A stretch of 35,019 nucleotides of DNA from Nitriliruptoria bacterium. GTDB taxonomy: Bacteria > Actinomycetota > Nitriliruptoria > Euzebyales > Egibacteraceae. The stretch covers positions 1 to 35,019 of the forward strand of contig PUKE01000115.1 in the NCBI GenBank assembly GCA_003550425.1, written 5' to 3'. Of the stretch, positions 4,657-35,019 are shown piece after piece. The notes beneath the pieces are model-generated. The model was given only the letters and a program-made list of their open reading frames with translations, made no database searches and was not told the origin of the DNA. A program made the translations under genes and the position numbers. Numbering within the stretch: position 1 is the first letter of the stretch; each line of letters begins with the position of its first letter.

Positions 4657-6147
4657 TCAGCCGCTCGCGATCAGCACCGCCTGGTCCGCCGCGCCCCACA
4701 GCAGCGGCGCGAGCACGAACAGCGCGACGGTGACCACCGCGAGCCCGCCCACGGTGAAGCCGAGCGCGAGGCCCGGCTGCACGGGCTCGGGCTCGGGCTC
4801 GGGGGCCTCCTCCATCCAGACCACCCGGGCGACACGCAGGTAGTAGACGAGGCTGATGACGGTGTTGATCGCCACGGCCGCCGCCAGGACGATGCCTAGG
4901 GTGGTGCCGGCCTCCACCGCCACGAAGAACACGGCGAGCTTGGCCACGAAGCCCACCAGCGGCGGGATGCCTCCCAGGCTGACCAGGAAGGTCGTCAGGG
5001 CCACGGCCAGGCCCGGCGACCGCTGGCCGAGGCCGGCGTAGTCCGACACCCGTCGACCCGGATGGCGACGCGCCACCGCGATCACCACGGCGAACGCCCC
5101 GATGTTCATGGCGCCGTAGGCGAACAGGTAGACGAGCACCGCGCTGAAGGCGTCGGCGTTGAGCGCCGCGTCGCCGGGCTGGACGACCGCGAAGGGCACG
5201 AGCACGTAGCCGGCGTGGGCCACCGAGGAGTAGGCGAGCAGCCGCACCATGTTGGTCTGCGTCAGCGCGGTGAGGTTGCCGAGGGTCATGGTGAGGATGG
5301 CCACCACGCCGAGCACCGGCGCCCACACGTCCGCGAGCGGCTCGAAGGCCACGAACGTGACCTGCAGCAGCCCCGCGAAGCCGGCGGCCTTGGAGGCCAC
5401 CGCCAGGAAGGCGGTGACGGGGATCGGCGCGCCCTCGTAGGTGTCGGGCGCCCAGAAGTGGAACGGCACCGCGCTGACCTTGAAGCCGAAGCCGGCGATG
5501 ACGAACAGGGTGGCGGCCAGCAGCAGCGGGTTGGCCTCGCCGGCGGACAGCGAGGCGGCCACGCCCTCCAGGGTGGTCGTCCCGGTGAAGCCGTAGACGA
5601 TGGACAGGCCGAACAGCAGCACCGCGGCGCTCAAGACCCCGAAGAGGAAGAACTTCATGGCGCCCTCGTTGCTGCGCAGGTCGAACTTGCGCAGCCCGGC
5701 CATGATGAACCCGGGGACGCTGACGAGCTCGAGGGCGATGAACAGCATCACCAGGTCGCGCGCGCTCGGCATCAGCATCATGCCGAGGAACGCCGCGAGC
5801 ATGAGGAAGTAGTACTCGCCCTGGAAGGTGCGGATCTCGCTGAAGTAGCGATAGCTGATGAGCAGCACGAACAGCGCCACCGCGAGGAAGAAGCCCTTGA
5901 ACGCGAGCGCGTAGTCGTCGACCACGAACATCTGCCCGAACGAGGACCGCTGCGCGCCGTCCAGCCACAGGGCCACCACGAACCCGAAGGCGACGAGCAC
6001 CCCGAGCACCGCGATCGGGTTCACGAAGCGCTTGCGCGGCCCGTGCAGGAACAGCTCGATCAGCAGCACGAGCAGCGAGGCGCCGAGCACCGCCAGCTCT
6101 GGCGCCAGCGCGAAGAGGTCGATCTGGGTGGCCTGGTCGACGTCCAT
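4657..6147 (-). CDS. nuoN: NADH-quinone oxidoreductase subunit N (cluster 1)
   Basis: 496 aa antiporter-like subunit; FGFKVSAVPFHFWAPDTYEGAPIPVTAFLAVASKAAGF; follows nuoL and nuoM. Confidence 0.95.
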   Translation of the reverse strand: MDVDQATQIDLFALAPELAVLGASLLVLLIELFLHGPRKRFVNPIAVLGVLVAFGFVVALWLDGAQRSSFGQMFVVDDYALAFKGFFLAVALFVLLISYRYFSEIRTFQGEYYFLMLAAFLGMMLMPSARDLVMLFIALELVSVPGFIMAGLRKFDLRSNEGAMKFFLFGVLSAAVLLFGLSIVYGFTGTTTLEGVAASLSAGEANPLLLAATLFVIAGFGFKVSAVPFHFWAPDTYEGAPIPVTAFLAVASKAAGFAGLLQVTFVAFEPLADVWAPVLGVVAILTMTLGNLTALTQTNMVRLLAYSSVAHAGYVLVPFAVVQPGDAALNADAFSAVLVYLFAYGAMNIGAFAVVIAVARRHPGRRVSDYAGLGQRSPGLAVALTTFLVSLGGIPPLVGFVAKLAVFFVAVEAGTTLGIVLAAAVAINTVISLVYYLRVARVVWMEEAPEPEPEPVQPGLALGFTVGGLAVVTVALFVLAPLLWGAADQAVLIASG

Positions 6148-6271
6148 CGCGGGGGTTGCCCTCTCGTCGTCGGGACCGGTGCGGCGTGGGGCCGATCAGC
6201 GCCGCGCGCGCCGGTCGGGTCGGTCGCGGTCGGTTGGTGGGTCGTCGGGCGGGGTTCGGCGCCGCGCGCGG

Positions 6272-7810
6272 TCAGGCGCCCAGCGCGGTGAGCACCGCCG
6301 ACACGGCCGGGTCGGTGATGCCGAACACGAGCACGGGCACCAGGCCGATGGCCACGGTCATGACCAGCAGGGGGGACCAGGCGCCCCACTCGATCGCGCT
6401 GACGTCGCTCAGGTCGGCCTCGCGCCAGCGCGCGGGCGCGGTGCCCATCGTCACCTTCTGGAGCATGTTCAGGAAGTAGCCCGCGGTCAGCACGGTGCCG
6501 ATCGCGCCGAGCACCATGAGCACGCGGAAGAAGGTCAGGAACCCGGCGTCGACGAGGGCCTCGGCCGGGTTGAAGGCGGCGTAGAGGGCCACCACCTCGC
6601 CCCAGAAGCCGGGCAGCGGTGGGAGCCCGAGGCTGGCGATGGCCACGAACGTCAGCACCGCGCCCATGCGCGGCATCGTCTGGAGCACGCCACCGCCGAT
6701 GTCGGCGATCGCGCGGCTGTGGTAGCGCTCCTTGATCGAGCCCACCGCGAAGAACAGCATCCCGGTGATGATCCCGTGGGCGATCATCCCGAAGATCGCG
6801 GCGTTGACCCCCACCGGGGTGAGGGTGGCGATGCCCAGCATCACGAAGCCCATGTGCCCCACCGAGCTGAAGGCGATCAGGCGCTTCAGGTCGGTCTGGG
6901 CGAGGCAGCACAGCGCGCCGTAGAGGATCGCGATCACCGCGAGCGCGCCGATGATGGGGGCGTACTCCACGGCCGCGTCCGGCAGGATCGGCAGCGCGAT
7001 GCGGACGAAGCCGTAGGTCCCCATCTTCAGCAGGATGCCGGCCAGCAGCACGCTGCCGACGGTCGGCGCCTCGGTGTGGGCGTCGGGCAGCCAGGTGTGG
7101 AAGGGCCACATCGGCACCTTCACCGCGAGCCCCAGGAAGATGCCGAGGAAGGCCAGGCGCTGGAAGGTCAGCCCGAACTCGCCGGCGGCGCCCGCCTGCT
7201 GCAGCGCGACGATGTCGAAGGTCCCCGGGCCCGCGAAGTACAGGGCGATGAACGCCACGAGCATGAACACGCTGCCGAACAGCGTGTAGAGGAAGAACTT
7301 CACCGCCGCGTACTCGCGGCGCGGACCGCCCCAGATGCCGATCATGAAGTACATCGGCACCAGGACCAGCTCCCAGAACACGAAGAACAGCACCAGGTCG
7401 AAGGCGACGAAGGTGCCGGCCATGCCGGTCTGGAGCAGCAGCATCAGCGACAGGAAGGCCTTGGGCCGCCCCGGCTCCTCGAGGTGGTGGAAGGTGTAGA
7501 CCGCGCACAGGAACGTGAGCAGGTAGCTGAGCACGAACAGCGGCAGGCTGATCCCGTCGATCGCCACGTGGTAGCTGGCGTCGATGACGGGGATCCAGTC
7601 GACCCGCAGCTGGTAGGCCAGCCCCTCGCCGCCGGGGGGCCCGAGGTAGTAGCCCGCCAGGATCGCCAGCGACAGGAGGAACGCCAGCAGCGAGACCCCG
7701 AGGGCGACGGGCTTGGCGGCCTCCTCCTTCGCCTTGGGGATCAGGGTGATGAGCGCTGCCCCCACTAGCGGCAGGAAGACGGTGATGGTGAGCGCAGAGG
7801 CTTCCCACAT
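6272..7810 (-). CDS. nuoM: NADH-quinone oxidoreductase subunit M (cluster 1)
   Basis: 512 aa; FVFWELVLVPMYFMIGIWGG and VKVPMWPFHTWLPDAHTEAPTVGSVLLAG. Confidence 0.96.
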   Translation of the reverse strand: MWEASALTITVFLPLVGAALITLIPKAKEEAAKPVALGVSLLAFLLSLAILAGYYLGPPGGEGLAYQLRVDWIPVIDASYHVAIDGISLPLFVLSYLLTFLCAVYTFHHLEEPGRPKAFLSLMLLLQTGMAGTFVAFDLVLFFVFWELVLVPMYFMIGIWGGPRREYAAVKFFLYTLFGSVFMLVAFIALYFAGPGTFDIVALQQAGAAGEFGLTFQRLAFLGIFLGLAVKVPMWPFHTWLPDAHTEAPTVGSVLLAGILLKMGTYGFVRIALPILPDAAVEYAPIIGALAVIAILYGALCCLAQTDLKRLIAFSSVGHMGFVMLGIATLTPVGVNAAIFGMIAHGIITGMLFFAVGSIKERYHSRAIADIGGGVLQTMPRMGAVLTFVAIASLGLPPLPGFWGEVVALYAAFNPAEALVDAGFLTFFRVLMVLGAIGTVLTAGYFLNMLQKVTMGTAPARWREADLSDVSAIEWGAWSPLLVMTVAIGLVPVLVFGITDPAVSAVLTALGA

Positions 7811-7878
7811 GTCGGTCCTGGTCCTTTCGCTGGCCCGCGGAGGTCGTGGTCGTCAGGGGTCGGAGGCGCGGGGTCGGG

Positions 7879-9903
7879 TCAGGCGCCGGTGGCGAACACC
7901 ACGGCCAGCACGAACACGCCGATGAACAGCGCGCCCGCGTAGAGCTGGACGTTGCCGGACTGGGCCAGGCGCATCCGCGCGCCCGACCACAGCGCCGAGG
8001 CGCCCAGGCCGTTGATGGCGCCGTCGATGCCCCGCTGGTCGCCGGTGTCGTAGAGCACCCGTCCGAGCGCGGCGGTCCCCCTCCCGGACCAGTAGACCGC
8101 ACCGTCGAGCACCCGGTCGCTGAACCACACGGCCGCGGGGGCGAGCCGGTCCCGCACCGCGGTGCGCGCGATCAGGTCGGTGTAGAGGTCGTCGAGGTAG
8201 TAGCGCCGCTCCAGCACGTGCGAGAGCAGCCCCAGGTGGTGCACGGGGTCGCGCTCGGGCGCCTCGCGGTAGATCGCCCGCGCGCCGAGCACGCCCGCCA
8301 GGGCGAGCGCGGTGGCGAGCGCAGCGATCGCGGCGTTCAGCTCGATGGGGTTGGCCACCCAGTAGTCCACGTCGAACATCACCCACGAGGAGAACGACAG
8401 GGGCTGGACGGCCGGGAAGGGCAGGTTGATCCAGCCGATCGCCACCGCGGGCACCGCGAGCGCGACCAGCGGCGCGGTCATCGCCGGCTCGGACTCGTGG
8501 GGATGGCCGTGCCCGCGGAACTCGCCGGCGAACACGAGGTAGAGCGCGCGGGTCATGTAGAAGGCGGTGATCAGCCCGCCGAGCAGGCCGAGCACGAGGA
8601 CCAGGCCGCCGGTGTACCCGCCGGCCTCGAAGGCGGCGACGAGGATCTCGTCCTTGGACCAGAAGCCCGCCAGCGGGGGGATGGCGATGAGCGCCAGGGA
8701 GCCGGCGAGGAAGGTCCAGAAGGTGACGGGCATCACCCGGCGCAGCCCACCCATGTCGGTCATGTGGTTGGAGTGCGCGGCATGGATGACCGAGCCCGCG
8801 CCCAGGAACAGCAGGGCCTTGAAGAAGCCGTGGGTGAACAGGTGGAAGATGCCGGCCACGTAGCTGAACGACAGCGCGGCGACCATGTAGCCGAGCTGGC
8901 TGACGGTGGAGTAGGCCAGCACCTTCTTGAGGTCGGTCTGCACGAGGGCGAGCAGGCCCGCCATCACCAGGGTGATCGCGCCGATGACCGCCAGCGTCGC
9001 CTGGGCGGCCGGCGCGGCCTGGTAGGCCGGGAACAGCCGCGCCACCAGGAACACCCCGGCGGTGACCATCGTGGCGGCGTGGATCAGCGCGCTGACCGGC
9101 GTGGGGCCGGCCATCGCGTCGGGCAGCCAGGTGTGCAGCGGGAACTGCGCGGACTTGCCGACCGCGCCGAGGACCATCGCCAGCAGCGCGAAGGTCAGCA
9201 GCCCCTGCTCGAAGCCCCCGGCGGCGATGCCGTCGAGCACGCCCTGGATCGAGAAGGTCCCGAACATGCCCGCGAGGGCCACGACCCCGATGATGAGGCC
9301 GACGTCGCCGAGCTTGGTGGTCAGGAACGCCTTGATGGAGGCGTCCTGGTTGTGCTTGTCCTCCCACCAGAAGCCGATCAGCAGGAAGGAGCAGATCCCG
9401 ACGAGCTCCCAGCCCACCAGCAGCACCAGCAGGTCGCTGGCGATGACCAGCAGCAGCATCGAGAAGCTGAACAGGCTCAGCAGGGCGAAGAAGTAGGTGA
9501 AGCGCGGATCGTCGCGGAGGTAGCCGACGCTGTAGACGTGCACCATCAGGCTCACGGCGCTGACCAGCAGGAACATCATCGCGGTGAGCCCGTCGACCCG
9601 CATGCCCAGCTCGACGGTGAGGTCCCCGCCCAGCGGGGTGAGCGTCAGCCCGCGCTCCAGCAGGAATGCCTCGGCGCCCCCCGGCGCCGCCTGCGCCTCG
9701 CCCGCCGGCCCGATCGCCTGGGTGATCCCGGCGTTGTGGCTGAACACCTCCCAGGCCACCACCAGGGACAGCACGAGGGCCGCGGCCATGGCCACGAGCC
9801 CGACCTCGGCGCCCCGTCGCGGCAGCGCCCGGCCGGTGAAGGTGATGATCAGCACCGACACCGCCGGCAGCGCCGGGATCAGCCACGCCCATTCGGAGAA
9901 CAA
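7879..9903 (-). CDS. nuoL: NADH-quinone oxidoreductase subunit L (cluster 1)
   Basis: 674 aa; VGWELVGICSFLLIGFWWEDKHNQDASIKAFLTTKLGDVG, GKSAQFPLHTWLPDAMAGPTPVSALIHAATMVTAG. Confidence 0.96.
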   Translation of the reverse strand: MFSEWAWLIPALPAVSVLIITFTGRALPRRGAEVGLVAMAAALVLSLVVAWEVFSHNAGITQAIGPAGEAQAAPGGAEAFLLERGLTLTPLGGDLTVELGMRVDGLTAMMFLLVSAVSLMVHVYSVGYLRDDPRFTYFFALLSLFSFSMLLLVIASDLLVLLVGWELVGICSFLLIGFWWEDKHNQDASIKAFLTTKLGDVGLIIGVVALAGMFGTFSIQGVLDGIAAGGFEQGLLTFALLAMVLGAVGKSAQFPLHTWLPDAMAGPTPVSALIHAATMVTAGVFLVARLFPAYQAAPAAQATLAVIGAITLVMAGLLALVQTDLKKVLAYSTVSQLGYMVAALSFSYVAGIFHLFTHGFFKALLFLGAGSVIHAAHSNHMTDMGGLRRVMPVTFWTFLAGSLALIAIPPLAGFWSKDEILVAAFEAGGYTGGLVLVLGLLGGLITAFYMTRALYLVFAGEFRGHGHPHESEPAMTAPLVALAVPAVAIGWINLPFPAVQPLSFSSWVMFDVDYWVANPIELNAAIAALATALALAGVLGARAIYREAPERDPVHHLGLLSHVLERRYYLDDLYTDLIARTAVRDRLAPAAVWFSDRVLDGAVYWSGRGTAALGRVLYDTGDQRGIDGAINGLGASALWSGARMRLAQSGNVQLYAGALFIGVFVLAVVFATGA

Positions 9904-9924
9904 CGGTCCCGCCTCCCGCGCTCG

Positions 9925-10242
9925 TCAGTACTTCATCAGGTCGGCATCGTCGACGTTGACCGTGGCCCGGTTGCGATAGAGCAGCAGCACGATCGCCAGG
10001 CCGACGCCGACCTCCGCCGCGCCCACCGCCATCACGAACAGGGCGAACGCCTGGCCCGACAGCAGCGGATCGCCGACGTCGGTCGTCACCAGGCCGTGGA
10101 AGGCCACGAGGTTGACGGTCACGGCCGCGAGCATGAGCTCGACGCTCATCAGCACCAGCACGGCGTTGCGCCGGCTGAGCACGCCGTAGACCCCGGCGCT
10201 GAACAGCAGCGCCGCGAACGTCAGCGGGAACACCGCCTGCAT
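9925..10242 (-). CDS. nuoK: NADH-quinone oxidoreductase subunit K (cluster 1)
   Basis: 105 aa; VLMSVELMLAAVTVNLV and AVGAAEVGVGLAIVLLLYR, both conserved membrane Glu present. Confidence 0.95.
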   Translation of the reverse strand: MQAVFPLTFAALLFSAGVYGVLSRRNAVLVLMSVELMLAAVTVNLVAFHGLVTTDVGDPLLSGQAFALFVMAVGAAEVGVGLAIVLLLYRNRATVNVDDADLMKY

Positions 10243-10856
10243 CAGGGCGCTCCGATCTGCTGTCCGGCGTCCCCCGAGCCCGGCGCGCTGGTCACGTCGC
10301 TGGACGCTGGCGCGCGCTCGCGCTCGTCCCGCGCGTCATCGGGGCCCTCGTCGGGCAGTGGCCCCTCGCCCTCCTCGCGCCGCGCGAGGACCAGCGCGCC
10401 GATCAGGGCCACGGTCAGCAGGAAGCCCAGCACCATGAACGGGAAGGCCCACTGGACGTAGAGGACCTCGCCGAGGTCGGCCACCCGCACCGGCGTGACG
10501 TCCAGCGTGGCGTCCCCGACCGTGGTCACGATCAGCGTCATCAGCAGCGCGAACAGGCCGACGCTGACCGCCACGGCGAACTTGCGGTTCTCGTTGTGCT
10601 GGGCCATCGGGCCGATCGGGGCGCGCGTCAGCATCAGGCCGAACAGGATCAGCACGACCACGGCGCCGACGTACACCAGCACCTGGGCCCAGGCGAGGAA
10701 CTCCGCGCCCATCCACAGGAACGCGGCCGCGACAGCGACGAGGGCCACCACCAGGTAGAGGGCGGCGTGCACCACGTTGCGCGCGGTCACCACCAGCAGG
10801 GCGGCGGCACCGCCGAGGACCAGCGCACCGAGCATGAACAGGTCGGGCACGCTCAC
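10242..10856 (-). CDS. nuoJ: NADH-quinone oxidoreductase subunit J (cluster 1)
   Basis: GTG start overlapping the nuoI stop; [76 protein letters not shown]. Confidence 0.92.
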
Positions 10857-11806
10857 TGGTCGCCCTCCGATCCCTCGGAAGCCTGTCGCCGCCGCTTGGC
10901 CGCGGCGGCCTTCGCCTTCGCGGCGGCCACGCGCTCGCTCTTGCCCTCGGCCAGCAGCCGGTCGTAGGTCTCCTGGTCGAACTCCGGCGCGGGCTCGGCC
11001 GCCGGCTCCGCAGCGGCCGCGGCCTGCGCGCCCGCCTGGGGCGAGCCCGAGCCGCCGTCGTCCGCCTGGGGCGAGGCCGAGCCGCCGGGCTGGCCTCCCG
11101 CCGCGCTGCGCTGCTTGGCCGCCGCCTTCTTGGCCTTGGCCTTGGCCACGCGCTCGCTCTTGCCCTCGGCCAGCAGCCGGTCGTAGGTCTCCTGGTCGAA
11201 GTCCGGCGCGGGCTCGGCCGCCGGCTGCGCCGCGGCCTCGGCCTGGGCGGCGGCCTCCGCGGCCGCGCGCGCGGCCTCGGCGGCCTCCTCGACCGCCTTG
11301 GCGGCCGCGCGCTGGCCGTCCTGGACCTCCTTGGGCATCGCGGCGCCCACCTCCAGCGGCGGCGGGGGCGGCACGGTGTCCATCCACTCGCGCAGCTGGT
11401 CCATCTCGTGGGTGAGGTCGGCGATGCGGTGCTCGGAGTACTCGAACTCCGGCGACCAGAACAGGGCATCGAACGGGCAGACCTCCACGCAGATGCCGCA
11501 GTACATGCACAGCGCGAAGTCGATCGCGAACCGGTCGAGCTGGTTGCGCGTGCGGCTGCGTCCCCCGGGCTCCTTGGGGGGCACCGTCAGCTTGTGGCTG
11601 TCGATGTAGATGCACCAGTCGGGGCACTCGCGCGCGCACTGGAAGCAGACGGTGCAGTTCTCCTCCATCAGCGCGATGACGCCCCGAGTACGTGGCGGCA
11701 GGTCGGGCTTGACATGGGGGTACTGCTGGGTGGTGGCCGGGGTCAGCGCGGTCTTCAGCGTCAGCCCGAGGCCCTTGAGCAGCCCGATCTTGGGAGCGGT
11801 CGGCAT
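10853..11806 (-). CDS. nuoI: NADH-quinone oxidoreductase subunit I with long repeat-containing C-terminal extension (cluster 1)
   Basis: Two 4Fe-4S motifs [12 protein letters not shown] and [12 protein letters not shown], then ~165 aa Ala/Lys/Glu-rich extension with two copies of [34 protein letters not shown]. Confidence 0.93.
10894..11229 (-). repeat. Two direct repeats (~117 bp each, 219-bp period) in the nuoI 3' extension
   Basis: 10894-11010 and 11113-11229 share gcttggccgc...ccacgcgctcgctcttgccctcggccagcagccggtcgtaggtctcctggtcgaa(c/g)tccggcgcgggctcggccgccggct. Confidence 0.9.
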
Positions 11807-11851
11807 GTCAGGTCACCTCGTCGCAGCAGGGGGTCACAGCCAGCGCGCCGG

Positions 11852-12895
11852 TCATGGCAGCACCACGATCACGATGGCGATGACCACGATCTGGGCCAGC
11901 GCGAGGGGGATCAGGATCGTCCAGGCCATGCGCTGGAGCTGGTCCTCGCGCAGGCGCGGGAAGGTCGCGCGCGCCCAGGTCATGACCATGGCGAGGATCA
12001 CCGTCTTGGCGATGGTGGTCACGGTCCCGATGACCGCGCCCCACGCGCCGTCGGGCAGGTCCGCGCCCGGCCACGGGTACCAGCCGCCGAGGAACAGCAC
12101 GACGGCCAGGGCGCTGAGCACCACCATGCCGGCGTACTCGCTCAGCATGAAGAAGGCGTAGCGCAGCCCGGTGTACTCGGTCATGTGGCCGGCGATGATC
12201 TCGCTGTCGGCGATCGGCATGTCGAACGGCGGACGGTTGAGCTCCGCCATGGCCGCGACGAAGAACAGCCCGAAGCCAATGACCTGCGGCACGCCGTACC
12301 ACACCGGGATCGTGTCGAACAGCACGAGCTCGTTCTGGCGCTCGACGATCTCGACGAGGCTCAGCGTGCCCGCCTGGAGGGCGACGGCCGCGCCGGCCAG
12401 CACGAGCGGCAGCTCGTAGGCGATCAGCTGGGCGGCGTCGCGGATCGCGCCCATCAGCGAGAACTTGTTGGCGCTGGCCCACCCGGCCATCAGCACGCCG
12501 ATGACGGTCACCCCGCTGGCCGCCAGCGCGAAGAACAGCCCGAGGTCCAGGTTCTCGGCCCACACCCCCGGGCCGAAGGGGATCACCACGAGGATCATCA
12601 GGGTGGGGACCAGGGCCACGCCGGGGGCGATGGCGAACACCCAGCGGTCCGCCGACCGCGGGATGATGTCCTCCTTCTGGATGAACTTGGCCCCGTCGGC
12701 GACCAGCTGTCCGACCCCGTGCTTGACCGGCCCGAGCCCGGCCTCCATGGGACCGGTGCGGTCCTGCATGTGCCCCATGACCTTGTGCTCGAGGTAGCCC
12801 ACGACGAGCGCGGCCACGAGGAAGAACGCCACGATCACCAGCACCTTCACCACCACGGTGAAGAGCAGGCTGTCGAAGGTGAGGATGGACTCCAT
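11852..12895 (-). CDS. nuoH: NADH-quinone oxidoreductase subunit H (cluster 1, divergent)
   Basis: 347 aa; VGYLEHKVMGHMQDRTGPMEAGLGPVKHG, QKEDIIPRSADR, ELNRPPFDMPIADSEIIAGHMTEYTGLRYAFFMLSEY. Confidence 0.95.
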   Translation of the reverse strand: MESILTFDSLLFTVVVKVLVIVAFFLVAALVVGYLEHKVMGHMQDRTGPMEAGLGPVKHGVGQLVADGAKFIQKEDIIPRSADRWVFAIAPGVALVPTLMILVVIPFGPGVWAENLDLGLFFALAASGVTVIGVLMAGWASANKFSLMGAIRDAAQLIAYELPLVLAGAAVALQAGTLSLVEIVERQNELVLFDTIPVWYGVPQVIGFGLFFVAAMAELNRPPFDMPIADSEIIAGHMTEYTGLRYAFFMLSEYAGMVVLSALAVVLFLGGWYPWPGADLPDGAWGAVIGTVTTIAKTVILAMVMTWARATFPRLREDQLQRMAWTILIPLALAQIVVIAIVIVVLP

Positions 12896-12958
12896 GGGGC
12901 CTCTGGTGGGGTGCGCGGGGTCCCGCCGGACGGCTCGTCGGCGCGCAGCGTGCGCAGC

Positions 12959-14146
12959 CTAGCGGTCGACGTCGCCGACCACGAAATAGACGCTGCCCAT
13001 GATCGCGATCATGTCGGGCAGCATCGAGCCTTCCAGCAGATGCGGGATCATCTGGACGTTGTTGAACGACGGGGTGCGCATGCGCAGCCGGTAGGGCTGC
13101 TTGCCCCCGTCGCTGATCAGGTAGTAGCCGCCCTGGCCGAGCGGGTTCTCGGTGCGGACGTAGATGGCCCCCTCGGGCGCCTTGACCTGCTTGGGGGTCT
13201 TGGCGGCGAAGGGGCCGGCGGGCAGGTTGCCCAGGCACTGCTCGATGATGTCGCAGCTCGCGTCGATCCGGTCGAGCAGCACCTGGAAGCGGTCGTAGCT
13301 GTCGCCGTTCTCGGCGACCGGGACCGTGACGTCGACCTCGTCGTACTTGAGGTAGGGCTCGGTGACGCGGCTGTCCTCGGCGACCCCCGTGGCGTGCAGG
13401 GCCGGTCCCGTGACGCCGTAGTCGAGGGCGACCTCCGGCTCGAGGGCGCCCACGCCCTTGGTCCGCGCGTGGAAGATCTCATTGCCGAGCAGCAGGTCGC
13501 GGTACTCCTGGTTGCGGCGCCGCACCAGGGGCACGAGCTCCTCGGACGCCTTGAGGAAGCCCAGCGGCAGGTCGTCCTTGAGGCCCCCCCCCCGCGTGTA
13601 CGTGAAGTGCAGGCGGCCGCCGGTGGCCGACTCCATCAGGTTCTGGATGTCCTCGCGCTCGCGGAAGGCGTAGAACATCGGGGTGATCGCACCCAGCTCG
13701 AGCCCGAAGGAGGACACGAACATCAGGTGGTTCATGATGCGGTTCCACTCGCACATCATCGTGCGGATCCACTGGGCCCGCTCGGGGACCTCCAGCTCCA
13801 TCATCCGCTCGACGGCGAGGGCGACGCCCACCTCGTTGCAGAAGGCACTGAGCCAGTCGTGCCGGTTGACCAGCGCGATGATCTGCCGGTAGTCGCGGTG
13901 CTCGGCGAGCTTCTCGAAGGCGCGGTGCATGTAGCCGATGACCGGCTGGGCGCGCACGATGCGCTCGCCGTCGACGTCGATGACCACGCGCAGCACGCCG
14001 TGGGTGGCCGGGTGCTGCGGGCCGATGTTGAGGTTCATGTCCTGGGTCTGGAGGTCGCCGTCGCTGCGGACCTCCACCTGCAGGGACTCGCCGGGCGCGC
14101 CGGGGAGCACGCCGCCGGCCGCGTCAGCCGCGGCTGCCTGGGTCAT
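12959..14146 (-). CDS. nuoD: NADH-quinone oxidoreductase subunit D (cluster 1, divergent)
   Basis: 395 aa; [54 protein letters not shown]-terminal [12 protein letters not shown]. Confidence 0.96.
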
Positions 14147-14925
14147 CGCGAGCCCTCCTCGCCGTGGTCGTCCTGCTGCTCGCCCTCACCGGCGCCCTCG
14201 CGCTCGGCTCGCTTGCGCCGACGCATCTCGGCGGCCTTCGCCTTGGCCCGCGCGACGCGGTCGGACGGGTCCTCGCCGGCCTCCGCTCCCGAGCCCGACG
14301 ACGCCAACGCGCCGCTGGCCTCGCTCGACCCGGCCCCCTTGGCCTCGCTCGACCCGGCCCCCTCGGCCTCGCTCGATCCGGCCCCCTTGGCCTCGGTCGC
14401 GGTGCCCTTGCCGCGCCGCTTGGGGGCACTGGACTCCTCCTTCTCGCCCGGCCACGGCTTGGCGAGCCGCGTGGTCAGCGCGAAGTCCTTGCGCAGTGGC
14501 CAGCCCTCGAAGTTCTCGACCGTCAGGATGCGCGGGGCCAGCCCGGGATGGCCCTCGAACACGATCCCGAACATGTCCCAGATCTCGCGCTCCTGCCAGT
14601 TGGCCCCGCGGTAGACGCTGGTGATCGACGGCAGGCGGGGGTCCTCCCGCCCACCGGGGGCGACCGCGCGCAGGTGCACCTGATGGCGCTGCTCAGGGCT
14701 GTAGAGGTGGGTGATCACGGCGAAGCCCTCGTCGCCGAGGTCCACGCCGGTCATGAAGTCGAAGAGGCGGCAGTCGAGGCGCGGGTCCTCCTTGCACACC
14801 CGCGCGGCGGTCACCAGCACGTCGGGGGCGACCGTGACGGTCGCCTGACCGTAGGCGATCTCGCGGTCCACGAGCCGATCGCCGAAGCGGTCGAGGAACA
14901 GGTCCGTGATCTCCTCGGGCGTCAC
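14143..14925 (-). CDS. nuoC: NADH-quinone oxidoreductase subunit C with low-complexity C-terminal extension (cluster 1)
   Basis: [44 protein letters not shown] is the NuoC signature; ~85 aa tail with GAGSSEAK repeats and [19 protein letters not shown]. Confidence 0.94.
14317..14388 (-). repeat. 24-bp minisatellite (3 units) in the nuoC C-terminal extension
   Basis: ggcctcgctcgacccggcccccttx x3 (14317-14340, 14341-14364, 14365-14388), 1-2 substitutions between units; encodes an 8-aa repeat. Confidence 0.9.
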
Positions 14926-14986
14926 CGTGCTCCTTGCCTGCCGCGGGGTCGTGCGGGCGGGGCGGGATCGAGGGCCCGCGCCCGGC

Positions 14987-15535
14987 TCACATCGGGTCGT
15001 CGAGCGGATGCCGCGTCGGGTCGCCGTCGCCGGCCACGACGGGGCGCCGGGCGTCGCGCGCGGCGTAGCGCTCCTTCAGCGACTCGTGCTCGATCTGCTG
15101 CTGGAGCGTCACGATCCCCTCGAGCAGCGCCTCGGGGCGCGGGGGGCAGCCGGGCACGTAGACGTCGACGGGCACGACCTGGTCCACGCCCTTGGTCACC
15201 GAGTAGCTGTCCCAGTAGGGCCCGCCGCAGTTGCTGCACGACCCGAAGCTGATGACGTACTTGGGCTCGGGCATCTGGTCGTAGAGCCGCTTGATCGCCG
15301 GCGCCATCTTGTCGGTGAGGGTGCCGGCCACGACCATGAGGTCGGCCTGTCGGGGCCCATGGGCGAAGGGGATGACGCCCAGCCGGATGAAGTCGTGGCG
15401 CGCCGCCGACGTCGCGATGAACTCGATGGCGCAGCAGGCGAGCCCGAAGTTCATCACCCACAGCGAGTACTTGCGGCCCCAGTTCAGCACGAACTTCAGG
15501 GGCTGGGGCACCTCGTGGCTCTCGATCAGGCCCAC
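14987..15535 (-). CDS. nuoB: NADH-quinone oxidoreductase subunit B (cluster 1)
   Basis: GTG start; [49 protein letters not shown] (N2 cluster ligands). Confidence 0.95.
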
Positions 15536-15900
15536 TTCAGGACCCCCTTCTTGTACTCGTAGGGGAGGGTGAGGGTGACGAAGAACAGGAACACGAGCAT
15601 GACGCCCAGCATGAAGGGCTGGAGCTCGCCGGCCTCGCCGAGGACCACCGCCCAGGGGAAGATGAACAGGGTCTCCACGTCGAAGATGACGAAGAGGAAG
15701 GCGAAGAGGTAGTAGCGGATGTGGGTCTGCGACCACCCCTGCCCCACCGGGTCGATCCCGCACTCGTAGGTGGACAGCTTCCCGCCGTAGGAGCGGTCGG
15801 GTCGCACCAGTCGGCTCGCGGTGAACGCGACGGCCACCAGCAGGATGCCGGCGGCCAACAGCGCGAAGACCGTGGTGTAGGACTCGTAGTACTCGGTCAT
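15526..15900 (-). CDS. nuoA: NADH-quinone oxidoreductase subunit A (cluster 1)
   Basis: [18 protein letters not shown]...[50 protein letters not shown] just upstream. Confidence 0.95.
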
Positions 15901-15972
15901 GCTCCTCCTGGGCACGGCCGCCCAACCGGGCTCGCAGCGCAGCGCCGGCCTCCGGGCGTGACGGCGCGCATC

Positions 15973-17240: not shown

Positions 17241-18896
17241 CTACCCCGCGAACGTCGCCGCGCGCTCGGCGAGGTCGATCACGGCCGGGGGCAGCACGCC
17301 GAGGGCGATGACCCCGACGGCGGCCACCGAGACCGCGGTCGAGGCCGCCGACGCCGGCGGCACGGGGGCGTCCGCGAGGTGGGCGGGCTCGTCGTCCATG
17401 AACATCGCCACGATGACACGGATGTAGAAGTACGCAGCGATGACGCTGGAGATCACCAGCACCACGGCGAGCCACACCAGGCCCGCGTCGACGGCGGCGC
17501 GCACGATCCCGAACTTCGCGATGAACCCGACGGTCCCGGGGATCCCCGCCAGCGACAGCAGGAACAGGGCGAACATCACCGCCAGCGAGGGGGCGCTCTG
17601 CCACAGCCCGCGCAGGTCGGCCACGGCGATGGCCTTGCGCTGCCGGCGCTCGAGGATGGTCAGGATCCCGAAGGCCCCGAGGCTCATGATCGCGTAGGCC
17701 AGCAGGTAGAACAGGGTCGCGCCGGTGCCGATCTCGCTGACGGCGACCAGGCCGATCGCGGCGTAGCCGGCATGGGCCACCGCGGAGTAGCCGAGCATCC
17801 GCTTGAGGTCGTCCTGCACCACCGCCAGGGCCGCGCCGACCAGCATGGTGATCGCGGCCAGGACGCTGACGGCCGGCACCCAGATCCAGGCCAGCTGCTC
17901 CATGCCGCCGGTGAACACCCGGAGGAAGGCGGCGAAGGCCGCCACCTTCGTCGCCGCGGCCATGAAGGCGGTGACCGGCGTGGGCGCGCCCTGATACACG
18001 TCGGGGGTCCACATGTGGAACGGGACCAGGGCGACCTTGAAGGCGAACCCCACCAGCATCAGGGCGATGCCGGCGAACACCAGCCCGGCGGGCGTGCCCG
18101 GGTCGGACAGGGCGACCCCGGCCGTGGCGATGTGCGTGGTGCCGGTGGCCCCATAGACCAGGGCGATCCCGTACAGCAGGAACGCCGAGGAGAAGGCGCC
18201 GAGCAGCAGGTACTTGAACGCGCCCTCCTGGCTGGCCATGTCGCGCCGGGCCAGCCCGGTCATCACGTAGAGGGCGAGCGACAGGATCTCGACGGCCAGG
18301 AAGACCATGAGCAGGTCGGCGGCGCTGGCCAGCAGCGTCATCCCCGTCGCGGTGAACAGCAGCAGCGGGTAGTACTCGCCGCGGTGGATCCGGCGGTCCT
18401 GCAGGTAGGCGAAGCCGAGCAGGACGGTGAGGATGCCGGCGCCGGCGACCACGAAGCGCGTGAACAGCGCGACGCCGTCGACGGCGACCATGTCGGCCAG
18501 CAGGCTCTCGGTGCCCACCATCCCGCCGTTCGCGGCGGCCTGGTACTGCCAGGCGGCGATCCCGATGGTCGCGACGAGGGCCACGACGGTGAGCACCGCC
18601 CCCAGCAGCCGCGGCCGCGTGTGCAGCCACAGGGTCAGGGCCAGCTGCAGCACCCCGGCGCCGACCAGCAGGGCCACGATCTCGGGGGCCGCGCCCCCGG
18701 GGATGGCCGCCAGCGCGGCGATGCCCAGCAGGATCGCCAGGGCGATGACCGACGAGGTGCGCCGCCGCGGCCCGGCGGTGTCCAGCAGCAGGACCAGGAT
18801 CCCGGCGCCGAACAGGGTCAGCTCGGGGCTGATGGCCGCCCAGGGGATCTCGGGGATCTCCACGCCGGCGGGCAGCTGTTGAGCCAGCGCGCTCAC
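17241..18896 (-). CDS. nuoN: NADH-quinone oxidoreductase subunit N (cluster 2)
   Basis: 551 aa; VGFAFKVALVPFHMWTPDVYQGAPTPVTAFMAAATKVAAF; last of 14 nuo genes. Confidence 0.96.
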   Translation of the reverse strand: MSALAQQLPAGVEIPEIPWAAISPELTLFGAGILVLLLDTAGPRRRTSSVIALAILLGIAALAAIPGGAAPEIVALLVGAGVLQLALTLWLHTRPRLLGAVLTVVALVATIGIAAWQYQAAANGGMVGTESLLADMVAVDGVALFTRFVVAGAGILTVLLGFAYLQDRRIHRGEYYPLLLFTATGMTLLASAADLLMVFLAVEILSLALYVMTGLARRDMASQEGAFKYLLLGAFSSAFLLYGIALVYGATGTTHIATAGVALSDPGTPAGLVFAGIALMLVGFAFKVALVPFHMWTPDVYQGAPTPVTAFMAAATKVAAFAAFLRVFTGGMEQLAWIWVPAVSVLAAITMLVGAALAVVQDDLKRMLGYSAVAHAGYAAIGLVAVSEIGTGATLFYLLAYAIMSLGAFGILTILERRQRKAIAVADLRGLWQSAPSLAVMFALFLLSLAGIPGTVGFIAKFGIVRAAVDAGLVWLAVVLVISSVIAAYFYIRVIVAMFMDDEPAHLADAPVPPASAASTAVSVAAVGVIALGVLPPAVIDLAERAATFAG

Positions 18897-20484
18897 CGGC
18901 TCACCTCCTCGTCGTCCACGGCGACCTCGTCGTCAGCAGGGGGGTCGATCACGAGCTCGGCGTCCGCGCCCGCGTCACCGGTCAGGTGCCGCAGCGTCGC
19001 GAGGTCCGCGTCCTCGGCGACGGCGACGACCTCGTCGACCAGGGCCTCGACCGTCGGGTTCACCCGCTCGTAGAGGGGGCCGGGGTAGACCCCGATGACC
19101 AGCATCAGCACCACGATGGGCGCCACGACCCCGACCTCGCGGGGGGTCAGGTCGGTGAGGCCGACCGCGCGCCCCTCGACCGGGCCGTGGAACATCCGCT
19201 GGTAGGCCCACAGCAGGTAGATCGCGGCGAGGATCACCCCGAGGGTGGCCAGCACGCCGGCCAGCGGCAGGGCCTCGAAGGTCCCGAGCAGGATCGGGAA
19301 CTCGCCGGTGAAGCCGTTGAGCCCTGGCAGGGCCAGCGAGCTCATCGCGGTCACGAGGAACAGCCCGCCGAACACCGGGGTGGCGCGCATGATCCCCGAG
19401 TACGAGGCGATCGCGCGGTCGTGCGTGCGGTCGTAGAGGAAGCCCACGAGCAGGAACAGCGCGCCCGTGGACAGCCCGTGGTTGACCATCTGGACCACGC
19501 TGCCCGCGGCCCCGGTCTGGTTCAGCGCGAAGGCGCCGAGGACCACGAAGCCGAGGTGGCTGACCGAGCTGTAGGCGATCAGGCGCTTGATGTCGCGCTG
19601 CACCATCGCCACCAGGGCCCCGTACAGCACGCCGATCACGCCCAGCGCGAGCATCCACGGCGCCAGGGTCAGCGTGGCCTCGGGGAAGTAGGGCAGCGAG
19701 AAGCGCAGGAAGCCGTAGCCGCCGATCTTCAGCAGCACCGCGGCCAGGATGACCGAGCCCACGGTGGGGGCCTCGGTGTGGGCGTCCGGCAGCCAGGTGT
19801 GGAACGGGAAGATCGGCACCTTGATGCCGAAGGCCGCGAAGAACGCGAGGAACAGCCACAGCTGCTCGGTGCCGGTCAGGTCCAGGCCGCGCAGCAGGTC
19901 GTAGTCGAAGCCCTGCGCGCCCGCGCTCCAGTACAGGTAGAGGATCGCGACCAGCATCAGCAGGCCGCCGATCAGCGTGTACAGGAAGAACTTGATCGCC
20001 GCGTAGCGCCGCTGCTTGCCGCCCCAGATGCCGATGAGGGCGTACATCGGCACGAGCATGGCCTCGAACAGGACGTAGAACAGGATCAGGTCCAGGGCCA
20101 GGAACACGCCGAGCATCGCCGCGCCCATCGCCATGAGGGACACGAAGAAGCCCTTGGCGCGCTCCTGCTGGTGCCAGGCCGCCAGCACCACCAGCGGCAT
20201 GAAGAACGCGGTCAGGCCCACCAGCAGCAGGCTGATGCCATCCACGCCGAGGCGGTAGGAGATGCCCCACTGGGGGATCCAGGCCGCCTGCTCCTCGAGC
20301 TGGAAGCCGGGCTGGCCCACCTCGAAGGCGGCGACGATCGCCACGGCGATCCCGAGGGTGACCAGGCTGCCGACGAGCGACACCGAGCGGATCGGCCCGA
20401 CCGCGTGGCGCGGCATCGCGGCCACGAGGACCGCGACCGCCGCCGGGACGGCGATCAGGAGGGTCAGCAGGGGCAGGTCCGCCA

Positions 20485-20494
<10 letters not shown>
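18893..20494 (-). CDS. nuoM: NADH-quinone oxidoreductase subunit M (cluster 2)
   Basis: 533 aa; YVLFEAMLVPMYALIGIWGGKQRRYAAIKFF, IKVPIFPFHTWLPDAHTEAPTVGSVILA. Confidence 0.96.
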
Positions 20495-22452
<1,958 letters not shown>

Positions 22453-22516
22453 GGTTGGATCCCTCGCATCACGGTTGTGCCTCCCCCTCGCGGTGGAGCG
22501 TCGTGGGTGGCGCGCC

Positions 22517-22822
22517 CTAGGCCCGCAGGGCACCGACGCCGTCGGCGTCGGTGGAGGCGCGCAGACGGAACAGGTTGACGACGAGCGCGAGCCCCACGAC
22601 CACCTCGGCCGCGGCGACGACGATCACGAAGAACGCCAGCACCTGGCCATCGAGGTTGGCCTGGATCCGCGCGAACGTCACGAGCGTGAGGTTGACGCTG
22701 TTGAGCATCAGCTCCACGCACATGAACATCACGATCACGCTGCGTCGGATGAGCACGCCGACCGCGCCGATGGAGAACAGGGCGGCGGCGAGGATCAGGT
22801 AGTAGCCCGCTGGGACGCTCAC
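22517..22822 (-). CDS. nuoK: NADH-quinone oxidoreductase subunit K (cluster 2)
   Basis: 101 aa; [43 protein letters not shown]. Confidence 0.96.
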
Positions 22823-23589
22823 GTGCGCTCCTCCCCCTCCGCTCGTGACGGCTCGGCGTCGGGCCTCCCGTCGGGCCTCCCAGCGTCGGGCGCCCCGGCG
22901 TCGGGCGCCCCATCGCCTGGCGCGGCGGCGGCGTCGTCCTCACCGGGGCGCGCCGGCAGGACGGTCGAGCCGGGCTCGACGAGCTCCGCGGGATCCTCGC
23001 GCCGGCGCCCGAGGACGATCGCGCCGATCGCGGCGATGACCAGCAGGACGCTGGTGACCTCGAAGGCCCAGACGTAGTCGGTGAACAGCAGGAAGCCGAC
23101 CCCCCGCAGGTTGCCCTCGGCGGCGTTGACCGCCGCGAGCCCCAGGCAGGGCTCCCCGTCGCCGGTGCCCTCCAGGGCGGCCTCCGAGCCGCACACGCTG
23201 GCGTCGCCCAGGAAGGGACCGGCCGTGGCCGCGGCGAGGCTCACGAACAGCAGCACGCCCACGATGCTGGCCATGGTCTTCTGCCCCGGCACCCGTGCGG
23301 TGAGCGAGTCCTCGCGCGAGACGCCGAGCAGCATCAGCACGAACAGGAAGAGCACCACGATGGCGCCGGCGTAGACGATGACCTGGATGACCGCCAGGAA
23401 CTGCGCCTGGAGCACGGCGTACAGCACCGCGATCGCCAGGAAGTTGAGCACCAGCATGAGCGCTGCGTGCACCGCGTTGCGCATCAGGATCAGGCCGAGC
23501 GCCGAGCCGAGCGCGACCGCCCCGACGATGATGAACGTCCAGAGCTCGGCCGCGCCACCCTCGGTGGCCTGGGCGAGCACCGGGGTCAT
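22819..23589 (-). CDS. nuoJ: NADH-quinone oxidoreductase subunit J (cluster 2)
   Basis: 256 aa; [57 protein letters not shown]; Pro/Ala/Asp-rich tail with GAPDA repeats. Confidence 0.95.
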
Positions 23590-24194
23590 CCCTGCCCACC
23601 CCCGGGACGCGGGTCGTCGAGCAGGTCGGTGGTCACGGGGTCACCGTGCTCCTCCGGCGCCGCGAGATCCGCCTGCCAGTGGCGCAGCGGGTCCTGGGCG
23701 GCGTGCCCCTGGTAGTAGGTCATCCCTCGGGCCTCGACCTCGTCGTCGGTGTGCGGTGGCGGCTTGGCGCCCTCGGGCAGCGGCGCGAGCAGCATCTCCT
23801 TGGTGAAGATGAAGTCCTCGCGCTTGTCCGCGGACAGCTCGTACTCGTTGGTCATCGTGAGCGCGCGCGTCGGGCACGCCTCGATGCACAGGCCGCAGAA
23901 GATACAGCGCAAGTAGTTGATCTGGTAATCGGCACCGTAGCGCTCGCCCGGCGAGAAGCGCGCCTGGGGGGTGTTGTCCTCGCCGCGCACGAAGATGGCG
24001 TCGGCCGGGCAGGCCCAGGCGCACAGCTCACAGCCGACGCACTTCTCGAGGCCGTCGGGCCAGCGGTTGAGGACGTGGCGCCCGTGGAAGCGGGGCGCGG
24101 TGTCCCGGCGGGTGTCGGGGTACTCGGTGGTGGACGAGGGCCGGAACATCGACTTGAAGGTCAGGCCGAAGCCCTTGCGCAGCGCGTTGAACAC
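23586..24194 (-). CDS. nuoI: NADH-quinone oxidoreductase subunit I (cluster 2)
   Basis: 202 aa; [12 protein letters not shown] and [12 protein letters not shown]. Confidence 0.96.
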
Positions 24195-24206
24195 GGTCGG
24201 TTCCTC

Positions 24207-25493
24207 TCACCGCTCGCGATCGTCAGGGTCGTCGCCGCCGACGTCGTCGGGCGGCTCGGCCGGGCGGCGCGACGGCGTGGCGCCGACGAGCTCCCGTGCC
24301 TCCACGCGCTGCACGCGCTGGGATGCGGGCACGGCGGGCTCCTCCTCGGCCTGCTCCCGCCGCAGGGACGGCAGGATCAGGAGCACGAGGGCCACGACGC
24401 CGACGACGCCGAACAGCGTGAGGAGCTGGCCCATGCCGAGCGCTTGCAGCTCGTCCTGGCCGACCACGATCACGCCGGTCAGCATGACCCAGACCAGGCC
24501 GAAGGGCAGCAGCACCTTCCAGCCGAGGTCCATGAGGCGGTCGTAGCGGAAGCGCGGCAGGGTCCCGCGCAGCCAGATGAAGATGAACAGGAAGCCGGCC
24601 GTCTTGGCCATGAAGTACAGGGTCGGCAGGATCGCCTGCAGCCAGTCCGGGCCGAACAGCGGACCGCCGGGGCCGCCGAAGAACAGCGTGACCATGACGG
24701 CCGAGAACGTGAACATGTTCATGAACTCGCCGAGGTAGAACATCGCGAACTTCGCACCCGAGTACTCGGTGTGGAAGCCGCCGACGATCTCCCCCTCGCC
24801 CTCGGGCAGGTCGAAGGGCGGGCGCTGGGTCTCGGCCACCGCGGTCAGGAAGAAGATCGCGAAGGCGAAGACCTGCGGCAGCACGTTCCAGGCGGGGATC
24901 GTGATCGGGCCCAGCTCGGCGAGGGTGCCGCTCTGGGCCTCGACGATCTCCGAGACCTGCAGGGTGCCGTTCCACACGAACACCGCGGCGAAGGCCAAGG
25001 CCATGCCCAGCTCGTAGGAGACCATCTGGGCGCTGGACCGCACCCCGCCCAGCAGCGGGTACTTCGACCCCGAGGCCCAGCCGGCGAGCACGATGCCGTA
25101 CACGCCGAGGGAGCTCATCGCGAACACCCACAGCAGGCCGATCTCGGGATCCCAGACCTGCAGGGTGACCTCGCGGCCGAACAGCTCGACGGTCCCGCCG
25201 AAGGGGATCACCGCGAACATCACCAGCGCCGTGGTGGCGCTGATCACCGGGGCGGCGATGAACACCGCGCGATCGGCGATCTTGGGGGTGAGGTCCTCCT
25301 TGAAGAACAGCTTGATGCCGTCGGCGAGCGTCTGGACGATGCCCATCGGGCCGAGCCGGTTGGGCCCCACCCGCGTCTGCATCTTGGCCACCACGCGGCG
25401 CTCGCCCCAGATGAGCAGCGCGGTGCTGAGCAGCCACAGGACGAACGCCAGGTTGGCGACGATCAGCGCCGAGACGAAGTCTGGCCCCTCCAT
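24207..25493 (-). CDS. nuoH: NADH-quinone oxidoreductase subunit H (cluster 2)
   Basis: 428 aa; GERRVVAKMQTRVGPNRLGPMG, FFKEDLTPKIADR, TQRPPFDLPEGEGEIVGGFHTEYSG. Confidence 0.97.
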   Translation of the reverse strand: MEGPDFVSALIVANLAFVLWLLSTALLIWGERRVVAKMQTRVGPNRLGPMGIVQTLADGIKLFFKEDLTPKIADRAVFIAAPVISATTALVMFAVIPFGGTVELFGREVTLQVWDPEIGLLWVFAMSSLGVYGIVLAGWASGSKYPLLGGVRSSAQMVSYELGMALAFAAVFVWNGTLQVSEIVEAQSGTLAELGPITIPAWNVLPQVFAFAIFFLTAVAETQRPPFDLPEGEGEIVGGFHTEYSGAKFAMFYLGEFMNMFTFSAVMVTLFFGGPGGPLFGPDWLQAILPTLYFMAKTAGFLFIFIWLRGTLPRFRYDRLMDLGWKVLLPFGLVWVMLTGVIVVGQDELQALGMGQLLTLFGVVGVVALVLLILPSLRREQAEEEPAVPASQRVQRVEARELVGATPSRRPAEPPDDVGGDDPDDRER

Positions 25494-27964: not shown

Positions 27965-28019
27965 CGCTTCCTCGCTGTCGGGCGGCGCCTCGGGGCGCGG
28001 GCGGACCGCGCGCGGCGGG

Positions 28020-29357
28020 TCACGCGCCCACGAGCTGCTCGGGTCGTCCGTGCCCGCTGTTGCGGTCCACCGCGTCGGTGTGCGCCTCGATGCCGTCGGG
28101 CAGCCGGCCGTGCGCGATCAGGTGCTCGTACTCGTCGCGGAAGAGCGCGAGGCTCGACTTGATGGGGCTCACGGCGCCATCGCCGAGCGCGCAGAACGAG
28201 CGGCCGAAGATGTTGTCGCAGATCTCGTCGAGCAGGTCGAGGTCCTCGCTCCTGCCGCGCCCCTCCAGGAGGCGGTCGTAGATCTGGGACAGCCAGAAGG
28301 TGCCCTCGCGGCAGGGCGTGCACTTGCCGCAGGACTCGTGCTCGTAGAACTTGGTCCAGTTCCGGGCGGCCTCGACGACGCTGGTGCGGTCGCTGAACAT
28401 CTGCATGGCGGCCGTGCCCAGCAGGCTGCCGGCCTCCATGATCGCCTCGAAGTCCATCGGGGTGTCGGCGTGCGCGCCGGTCAGCAGCGGGGTGGAGGAG
28501 CCGCCGGGGGTCCAGAAGCGCAGCTCGCGGCCGTCGAGCATCCCCTGACAGGAGACCTCGACGATCTCCCGGGCCGTCGCGCCCATCGGCCACTCGTAGT
28601 TGCCGGGGCGGTTGACCTCGCCGGAGACGCAGAACAGCTTCGGGCCAGGCGACTTCTCGGTGCCCATCGACCGGTACCAGTCCACGCCGTGCTGGACGAT
28701 GTGGGGCACGTTGGCGATGGTCTCGACGTTGTTGACCTGGGTGGGCATGCCATAGACGCCCGCCTGGGCGGGGAAGGGCGGCCGCAGTCGGGGCTGGCCG
28801 CGCCGGCCCTCCAGTGAGTCCAGGAGCGCGGTCTCCTCGCCGCAGATGTAGGCGCCGGCCGCGTAGTGCAGGGTCACGTCGACGTTGACGCCGCTGCCCT
28901 TGATGTCCTTGCCGAGGTAGCCGGCCTCGTAGGCCTCGGCGATGGCGTGCTCGAGGCGCACCCCCGGCCACAGGTACTCGCCGCGCAGGTAGAGGAACGC
29001 GCGCTCGGACTCCAGGGCGTAGCAGGAGACGATGATCCCCTCGAGGAGCTGGTGGGGGTCGCGCTCCATCAGCTCGCGGTCCTTGAAGGTGCCGGGCTCG
29101 CCCTCGTCGGCGTTGATGACGAGGTAGGTCGGCTTGCCGGTGCCCCGCGGGGTGAAGCCCCACTTGACGCCGGTGGGGAAGCCGGCGCCGCCGCGCCCGC
29201 GCAGGCCCGCGTCCTTGACCTGGCTGACCAGGTCGGTGGGCGCCTGGTCGAACGCCGTGGCGAGCGACTGGTAGCCCCCGGTGCGCTCGTAGCCGGCCAG
29301 GGTGTGGGCGTCGGGGACGTCGTAGCGCTGGGTGAGGACGCTGATGGGCTCGCTCAC
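28020..29357 (-). CDS. nuoF: NADH-quinone oxidoreductase subunit F (cluster 2)
   Basis: GTG start overlapping the nuoE stop; GLRGRGGAGFPTGVKWGF, NADEGEPGTFKDR, ESCGKCTPCREGT. Confidence 0.96.
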   Translation of the reverse strand: MSEPISVLTQRYDVPDAHTLAGYERTGGYQSLATAFDQAPTDLVSQVKDAGLRGRGGAGFPTGVKWGFTPRGTGKPTYLVINADEGEPGTFKDRELMERDPHQLLEGIIVSCYALESERAFLYLRGEYLWPGVRLEHAIAEAYEAGYLGKDIKGSGVNVDVTLHYAAGAYICGEETALLDSLEGRRGQPRLRPPFPAQAGVYGMPTQVNNVETIANVPHIVQHGVDWYRSMGTEKSPGPKLFCVSGEVNRPGNYEWPMGATAREIVEVSCQGMLDGRELRFWTPGGSSTPLLTGAHADTPMDFEAIMEAGSLLGTAAMQMFSDRTSVVEAARNWTKFYEHESCGKCTPCREGTFWLSQIYDRLLEGRGRSEDLDLLDEICDNIFGRSFCALGDGAVSPIKSSLALFRDEYEHLIAHGRLPDGIEAHTDAVDRNSGHGRPEQLVGA

Positions 29358-31698: not shown

Positions 31699-31800
31699 GG
31701 GCCTCGGTGCTCCTGGCGTGGGCCTCGGTGTGCGCTGCGCGTGGTCGTGGGGCTGGTCGCTCGAGGGCGGGGGCGCCCGCGGATCGGGTCGGGCGCCGCG

Positions 31801-32466: not shown

Positions 32467-32468
32467 GG

Positions 32469-34902: not shown

Positions 34903-34955
34903 CCGAACCCTCCCTGATTCTCCGCCCGTGCGGCGATCCGGTGCCTCCACGGCGT

Positions 34956-34971
34956 TGTGAACGGTATCACG
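34956..34971. promoter_or_regulatory. CRP/FNR-family-like operator TGTGA-N6-TCACG upstream of the menJ-nuo locus
   Basis: tgtga-acggta-tcacg, 9/10 match to the TGTGA-N6-TCACA consensus, centred about 60 bp upstream of the preferred menJ start. Confidence 0.4.
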
Positions 34972-35019
34972 AGGCCTCTCCACTGCCCCGGGTCGTGTCA
35001 GGGGTCACGGGGCTGGGGA

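Follow-up and report, generated by a model that had tools for sequence, protein, structure and literature searches.

The Tyr that contacts the quinone headgroup in the NuoD (49-kDa) subunit of complex I has been described as strictly conserved (PMC8119997) and as essential (PMC7434922), and the headgroup is held to need two proton-donor ligands, His59 and Tyr108 (PMC9120487). In addition to the 14-subunit enzyme, 11-subunit forms of complex I are known, e.g., from Desulfitobacterium and as the cyanobacterial NDH-1, that consist of nuoABCDHIJKLMN, lack nuoEFG, and are served by a donor other than NADH (PMC11238625). A second nuo cluster has been described in Streptomyces, where nuoD2 was noted in 2013 to be placed apart from nuoA2, B2, and H2-N2 (PMC3765725). 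Here, we describe a stretch of 35,019 nucleotides from a Nitriliruptoria bacterium (the window) that carries two nuo clusters (Table 1). Cluster 1 shares the gene set of the 11-subunit enzymes and, in all probability, their independence of NADH.

Table 1. Features of the two nuo clusters and neighboring genes in the window. Residue numbers of NuoB1 begin at the codon preceding its GTG start.
Feature	Position	Strand	Description	Basis
Cluster 1	4657..15915	-	nuoABCDHIJKLMN, 11 genes, without nuoEFG	
nuoD1	12959..14146	-	Trp-type 49-kDa subunit of 11-subunit complex; 395 aa, PF00346	
NuoD1 W98 (TGG)	13853..13855	-	quinone-headgroup position; Nqo4 Tyr87, bovine and mouse Tyr108	alignment, codon reading
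NuoD1 R75	13922..13924	-	NDUFS2 Arg85 / Y. lipolytica R121, NDUFAF7 target by N2	sequence; PMC8042128
NuoD1 H49	14000..14002	-	retained headgroup-loop His (Nqo4 His38)	sequence comparison
NuoD1 E150	13697..13699	-	at Nqo4 Asp139 position	
nuoB1	14987..15535	-	N2 subunit, GTG start	
NuoB1 T73	15320..15322	-	Arg in NuoB2 (Nqo6 R83); reciprocal to NuoD R75	
NuoB1 A59	15362..15364	-	FRASPRQ Arg lost (human NDUFS7 Arg73)	sequence; PMC4938201
NuoB1 I41	15416..15418	-	at Nqo6 Met51 quinone-contact position	sequence; PMC7434922
NuoB1 C104	15227..15229	-	additional Cys three residues past conserved Cys101 near N2	
NuoH1 I228	12212..12214	-	first Glu of tunnel loop (PFDxPE) lost	
NuoC1	14143-14925		tail motif once	
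NuoI1	10853-11806		tail motif twice	
M48 gene	3681-4592		HtpX-like metallopeptidase, after nuoN1	
Polyprenyl synthase gene	16166-17203		between the two nuo clusters	
Cluster 2	17241..33469	-	14-gene nuoA-N, Tyr-type comparison enzyme in same genome	
NuoD2 gene	30286-31698	-		
NuoD2 Y127 (TAC)	31318..31320	-	canonical quinone Tyr	codon reading
NuoD2 T104	31387..31389	-	Thr at Arg85 position (Thermus-type)	
NuoB2 Arg	32889..32891	-	at Nqo6 R83 position	
Geranylgeranyl-reductase-like gene	33586-34983		upstream of nuoA2	

The Trp site of NuoD1 and its distribution

A sequence-only reading of the window had placed a Trp at the quinone site of NuoD1 and the canonical Tyr in NuoD2. Codon reading (TGG and TAC) and a phmmer alignment that runs without gaps from residues 30-324 of NuoD1 to 19-313 of Thermus thermophilus Nqo4 bear this out. 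NRHDWLSAF of NuoD1 pairs with TPRMDYLHSF of Nqo4, which puts W98 on Tyr87, and with FDRLDYVSM of mouse Ndufs2. In an AlphaFold2 model (pLDDT 86.5) that fits solved 49-kDa/NuoD chains almost end to end (TM about 0.87), W98 is the start of a helix comprising residues 98-116. Neither the alignment nor the model gives any sign of a register shift placing another Tyr at the headgroup site, an arrangement that the sequence-only reading had itself raised against its claim. A sequencing error is ruled out by the occurrence of the same Trp in a genome of the same genus and in 89 further sampled genomes. The partner His, said to be kept, is indeed found in every case, H45 and H49 of the loop being retained in 156/156 Trp-type NuoD sequences. 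The best family of NuoD1 is PF00346, with NiFeSe_Hases under the cut-off, and the CxxC nickel-binding pairs of [NiFe]-hydrogenase large subunits are absent from its sequence. Because W98 stands where the Tyr is expected, we class its quinone site as a variant rather than as that of a canonical complex I member. At the level of sequence, the loss of the Tyr in nature is firm.

We searched 297 Actinomycetota genomes with a DNA pattern for PQHP[AST]THG followed by 46 residues and D-W, and with the same pattern carrying Tyr. The Trp signature was found in 91 genomes (69 of 199 genera) and the Tyr signature, which overlooks some Tyr-type nuoD genes, in 110. A scan of 85k species returned at least 120 Trp matches, a lower bound that leaves room for rare matches in other phyla. 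Among the matches listed, 119 of 120 are Actinomycetota by label, and the lone other, a metagenome bin labeled “Acidobacteria”, has the same actinobacterial-type operon at the locus. Trp-type NuoD spans Acidimicrobiia, Actinomarina, and Actinomycetes. In a tree built with columns 75 and 98 masked, one branch with an SH-aLRT of 99% has all Trp sequences on the same side, and a single change between Tyr and Trp is enough, a result repeated with ten extra Trp sequences. The suspicion that Trp defines a paralog subfamily is thereby supported, with a single origin as judged from the tree, and the DWLS that it attributes to a second NuoD of Streptomyces is confirmed at three loci (L032, L033, and L077), where the gene stands outside any operon. 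It may be argued that the substitution reflects near-neutral drift of little functional meaning in a second copy, since it is located in a paralog and 62 of the 91 genomes have a Tyr enzyme alongside. We consider this very unlikely because Trp and an Arg upstream of it (R75) are both retained in 156/156 distinct sequences; the 29 Trp genomes without a match to the Tyr pattern also speak against it, allowing for the genes that this pattern overlooks.

Gene clusters and the orphan nuoD

The Trp-type nuoD is found in two settings. In the first, to which the window belongs, it is part of an operon of 11 genes (ABCDHIJKLMN) that lacks EFG and in many cases directly follows a 14-gene cluster on its downstream side. 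In the second, which accounts for 82 of 120 among the scan matches listed, it is an orphan with no further nuo gene in the surrounding stretch; orphans also occur in two more family groups (f12 and f48). The Streptomyces-like genomes examined are of the second kind and have one Tyr NuoD in a 14-gene cluster, one orphan Trp NuoD, and two NuoH. Their second nuo cluster reads A-B-C-H-I-J-K-L-M-N, with nuoD gone between C and H. Such D-less clusters were found in 19 of the 20 named genomes searched, some of them ending at contig ends, in Streptomyces, Kitasatospora, Micromonospora, Actinoplanes, Actinomadura, Nonomuraea, Terrabacter, Janibacter, Humibacillus, and other genera; that of Frankiaceae breaks off after nuoC. 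As these second clusters have no nuoD, the orphan Trp NuoD would be the missing subunit, being the sole D candidate in the Streptomyces-like and named genomes. The idea of an orphan bereft of its complex was dropped in view of the D-less clusters in both sampled and named genomes, as was the placement of Streptomyces nuoD2 within an 11-gene operon, the gene being an orphan.

Whether Trp tracks the absence of nuoEFG had been raised by the sequence-only reading, and the relation holds in one direction. Every operonic Trp-type cluster examined is without EFG, but eight EFG-less loci of Actinomycetota (L084-L088, L096, L277, and L278) retain Tyr. That Trp merely marks the missing nuoEFG is consequently refuted as a general rule and carries practically no weight with us. 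Judged by gene content, Trp is a mark of the Actinomycetota 11-subunit enzyme, yet it is not equal to “no EFG”.

Several individual loci have other layouts. L084 and L085 are Tyr-type EFG-less clusters of rearranged order (B-C-D-I-A-H-J-K-L). One genome (G038; L094 and L095) has two Tyr-type clusters with nuoE, F, and G in both. In another (G029; L097), a Tyr-type cluster contains homologues of nuoF and nuoG and two nuoI-like genes, nuoE being undetected; its NuoD has Arg and its NuoB Thr. In a single genome (G063; L269, 8500-12200), the second cluster consists of nuoA, B, C, a truncated nuoH, nuoI, and M48; J-N are absent within the 20 kb examined and the orphan Trp NuoD is found elsewhere. 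This cluster is possibly a pump-less remnant. An M48 gene is found after nuoN1 in the window and likewise in many other Trp-type clusters. The C-terminal tails of NuoI1 and NuoC1 share (S/D)-x-RVA-x-AKAKAA or close variants, a motif otherwise seen in the closest relatives only (L103 and L275), and possibly serve in docking.

Residues around cluster N2 and the quinone

R75 of NuoD1 is found 23 residues before W98 and pairs, in the gap-free phmmer alignment, with Thr in Nqo4 and Arg in mouse. In Yarrowia lipolytica, the equivalent R121 of NDUFS2 (human R85) is dimethylated and occupies the same space near N2 as R83 of Thermus Nqo6; Thermus has Thr at the R121 position, and Nqo6 R83 takes the space (PMC8042128). 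NuoD-75 is Arg in 156/156 distinct Trp-type sequences and Thr in 56/56 of the 14-gene type, whereas NuoB-73 is Thr in 72/72 for the Trp enzyme and Arg in 45/45 for the 14-gene enzyme. The mirror-image residues, read with the published structure, mean that the two complexes of one cell use opposite solutions on the N2 side. Nine Tyr-type NuoD from clusters without full EFG also have Arg, their partner NuoB having Thr or Trp, never Arg.

Methyltransferase genes of the NDUFAF7/MidA family (PF02636) are present in 71/91 Trp genomes and in 17/206 others (odds about 39). Counted by family group, the association is 24/3/7/36 (p about 2e-9), and it is this family-level count alone that takes kinship into account. 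In 45 of the 71 genomes, the gene is found at most 16 kb from the Trp nuoD (about 0.65 expected), adjoining the orphan or, in operons, beyond nuoN1. Among the 17 exceptions, six (G018, G029, G033, G044, G181, and G187) have a Tyr-type NuoD with Arg, which suggests that the gene tracks Arg and not Trp. PF02636 was detected neither in the window genome (95% complete) nor in its Trp-bearing relatives of the same family. With Trp and Arg75 present there, the Trp enzyme cannot have an obligate need for methylation; in E. coli, too, the Arg is present without dimethylation (PMC8042128). A requirement for the methyltransferase by Trp itself was rejected on the same grounds and because the gene accompanies Arg in several Tyr-type EFG-less enzymes.

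Nqo6 numbers were matched by counting from its tandem cysteines, which we take to be Cys45/Cys46. The Arg of FRASPRQ, known from human NDUFS7 as Arg73 close to the quinone tunnel (PMC4938201), is replaced by Pro or Ala in 72/72 Trp-type NuoB sequences (NuoB-59), never being Arg. At NuoB-41, the equivalent of the quinone contact Met51 of Nqo6 (PMC7434922), Gly, Ile, Ala, or Leu is found in 66/72 Trp-type sequences and Met in 41/43 of the 14-gene type. C35, C36, and C101, the three ligands counted, are present in 72/72 and an extra Cys like C104 in 65/72. NuoH-228 is Val, Ile, Leu, or Ala in 80/81 Trp-type sequences, and NuoD-150 is Glu or, in 42 sequences, Gln (those named being mostly Acidimicrobiia).

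The sequence-only reading had drawn from the Trp a changed headgroup interaction and possibly another quinone. Since NuoB and NuoH also differ at quinone-site positions in step with Trp, an altered headgroup environment is very likely. The second part is not supported. The window genome encodes MenD, and two Actinomycetes genomes having both complexes carry MqnA-family genes, which indicates that the two complexes most likely share menaquinone. A different quinone or a phenazine or polyketide quinone as acceptor, with Trp as the selectivity residue, would fit the joint alteration of several headgroup-site residues and a Streptomyces strain in which a polyketide quinone is reported to take over from menaquinone (PMC9927152). 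We find such an acceptor quite improbable since the range from Acidimicrobiia and Actinomarina to Actinomycetes is too broad for a single quinone of secondary metabolism, a menaquinone pathway is present in the genomes checked, and Tyr-type enzymes use menaquinone already, as does that of T. thermophilus (PMC7434922). The window also holds a polyprenyl synthase gene and a geranylgeranyl-reductase-like gene, and the genome of the same genus (G141) has menD on the same contig, a menaquinone/complex I neighborhood.

In 13 second clusters, the genes upstream of nuoA1 include some that resemble KorA of 2-oxoacid:ferredoxin oxidoreductase. A KorA homologue is encoded in the window genome away from the nuo clusters, and KorA is also present in genomes without a Trp match (G119, G195, G039, and G009). 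From gene context, ferredoxin is most likely the electron donor. The complex might instead run mainly in reverse, the proton gradient driving electrons from menaquinol to ferredoxin at a Tyr-free site that favors quinol oxidation. The absent NADH module and the neighboring oxidoreductase genes, whose products can work reductively, are compatible with this direction, which we nevertheless hold to be rather unlikely: Kor yields reduced ferredoxin in its oxidative direction as well, and any direction is an extrapolation from the genes.

Proposed mechanism and comparison with known systems

We propose, with a probability of roughly 0.62, that W98 serves as the signature of a clade of 11-subunit, menaquinone-reducing, proton-pumping complex I enzymes of Actinomycetota in which the N2/quinone site is rebuilt. 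The sequences show the mitochondrial arrangement on its N2 side, where NuoD has Arg and NuoB has Thr, and the Thermus arrangement, with Thr and Arg, in the 14-subunit enzyme. The chemistry that we infer for the Trp enzyme would be as follows. The headgroup would be held by His49 together with Trp stacking or an indole-NH contact, the bulkier Trp being partly fitted in by the smaller NuoB residue. As Trp would be unable to act as second proton donor, the second proton would have to come from His49, water, or another group. Reduced ferredoxin would supply the electrons (Kor genes adjoin nuoA1 in many Actinomycetes), and Arg75 would in most lineages be the substrate of the linked PF02636 methyltransferase. 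A further-reaching idea is that a whole branch of complex I reduces quinone, or operates in reverse, without a second protonic ligand, fed by ferredoxin and with an N2 retuned by an Arg in NuoD in place of NuoB that would be methylated in most lineages, such that its proton delivery and coupling would differ from Tyr-based models; this we regard as tentative and somewhat doubtful.

The Trp branch is a natural test of a central textbook residue, and its presence in culturable Streptomyces beside the normal Tyr enzyme provides an internal natural control for the role of Tyr. Because the Arg resides in NuoD of one complex and in NuoB of the other, the pair also tests the role of the N2-side Arg and its methylation.

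The second nuo cluster of Streptomyces (PMC3765725) belongs to the same clade as NuoD1. Compared with the available part of that paper, the present analysis adds the exchange of Arg and Thr, the neighboring methyltransferase gene, the range across the phylum, a nuoC-like gene between B and H, and the Trp itself, of which there may be earlier notice elsewhere. T. thermophilus Nqo4/Nqo6 resemble cluster 2 of the window at three sites (NuoD Thr, NuoD Tyr, and NuoB Arg) and are opposite to cluster 1 at all three. The mitochondrial NDUFS2 Arg85/NDUFAF7 system (PMC3829151; PMC8042128) shares the Arg position with NuoD1, and PF02636 is linked to nuoD in many genomes; it differs in having Tyr108 in place of Trp, whereas PF02636 is undetected in the window genome and methylation of Arg75 is here putative. 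From other 11-subunit forms of complex I, the Trp enzyme is set apart by Trp in place of Tyr, by the loss of the FRASPRQ Arg and the NuoH tunnel Glu, and by a nuoD that is often split from its cluster.
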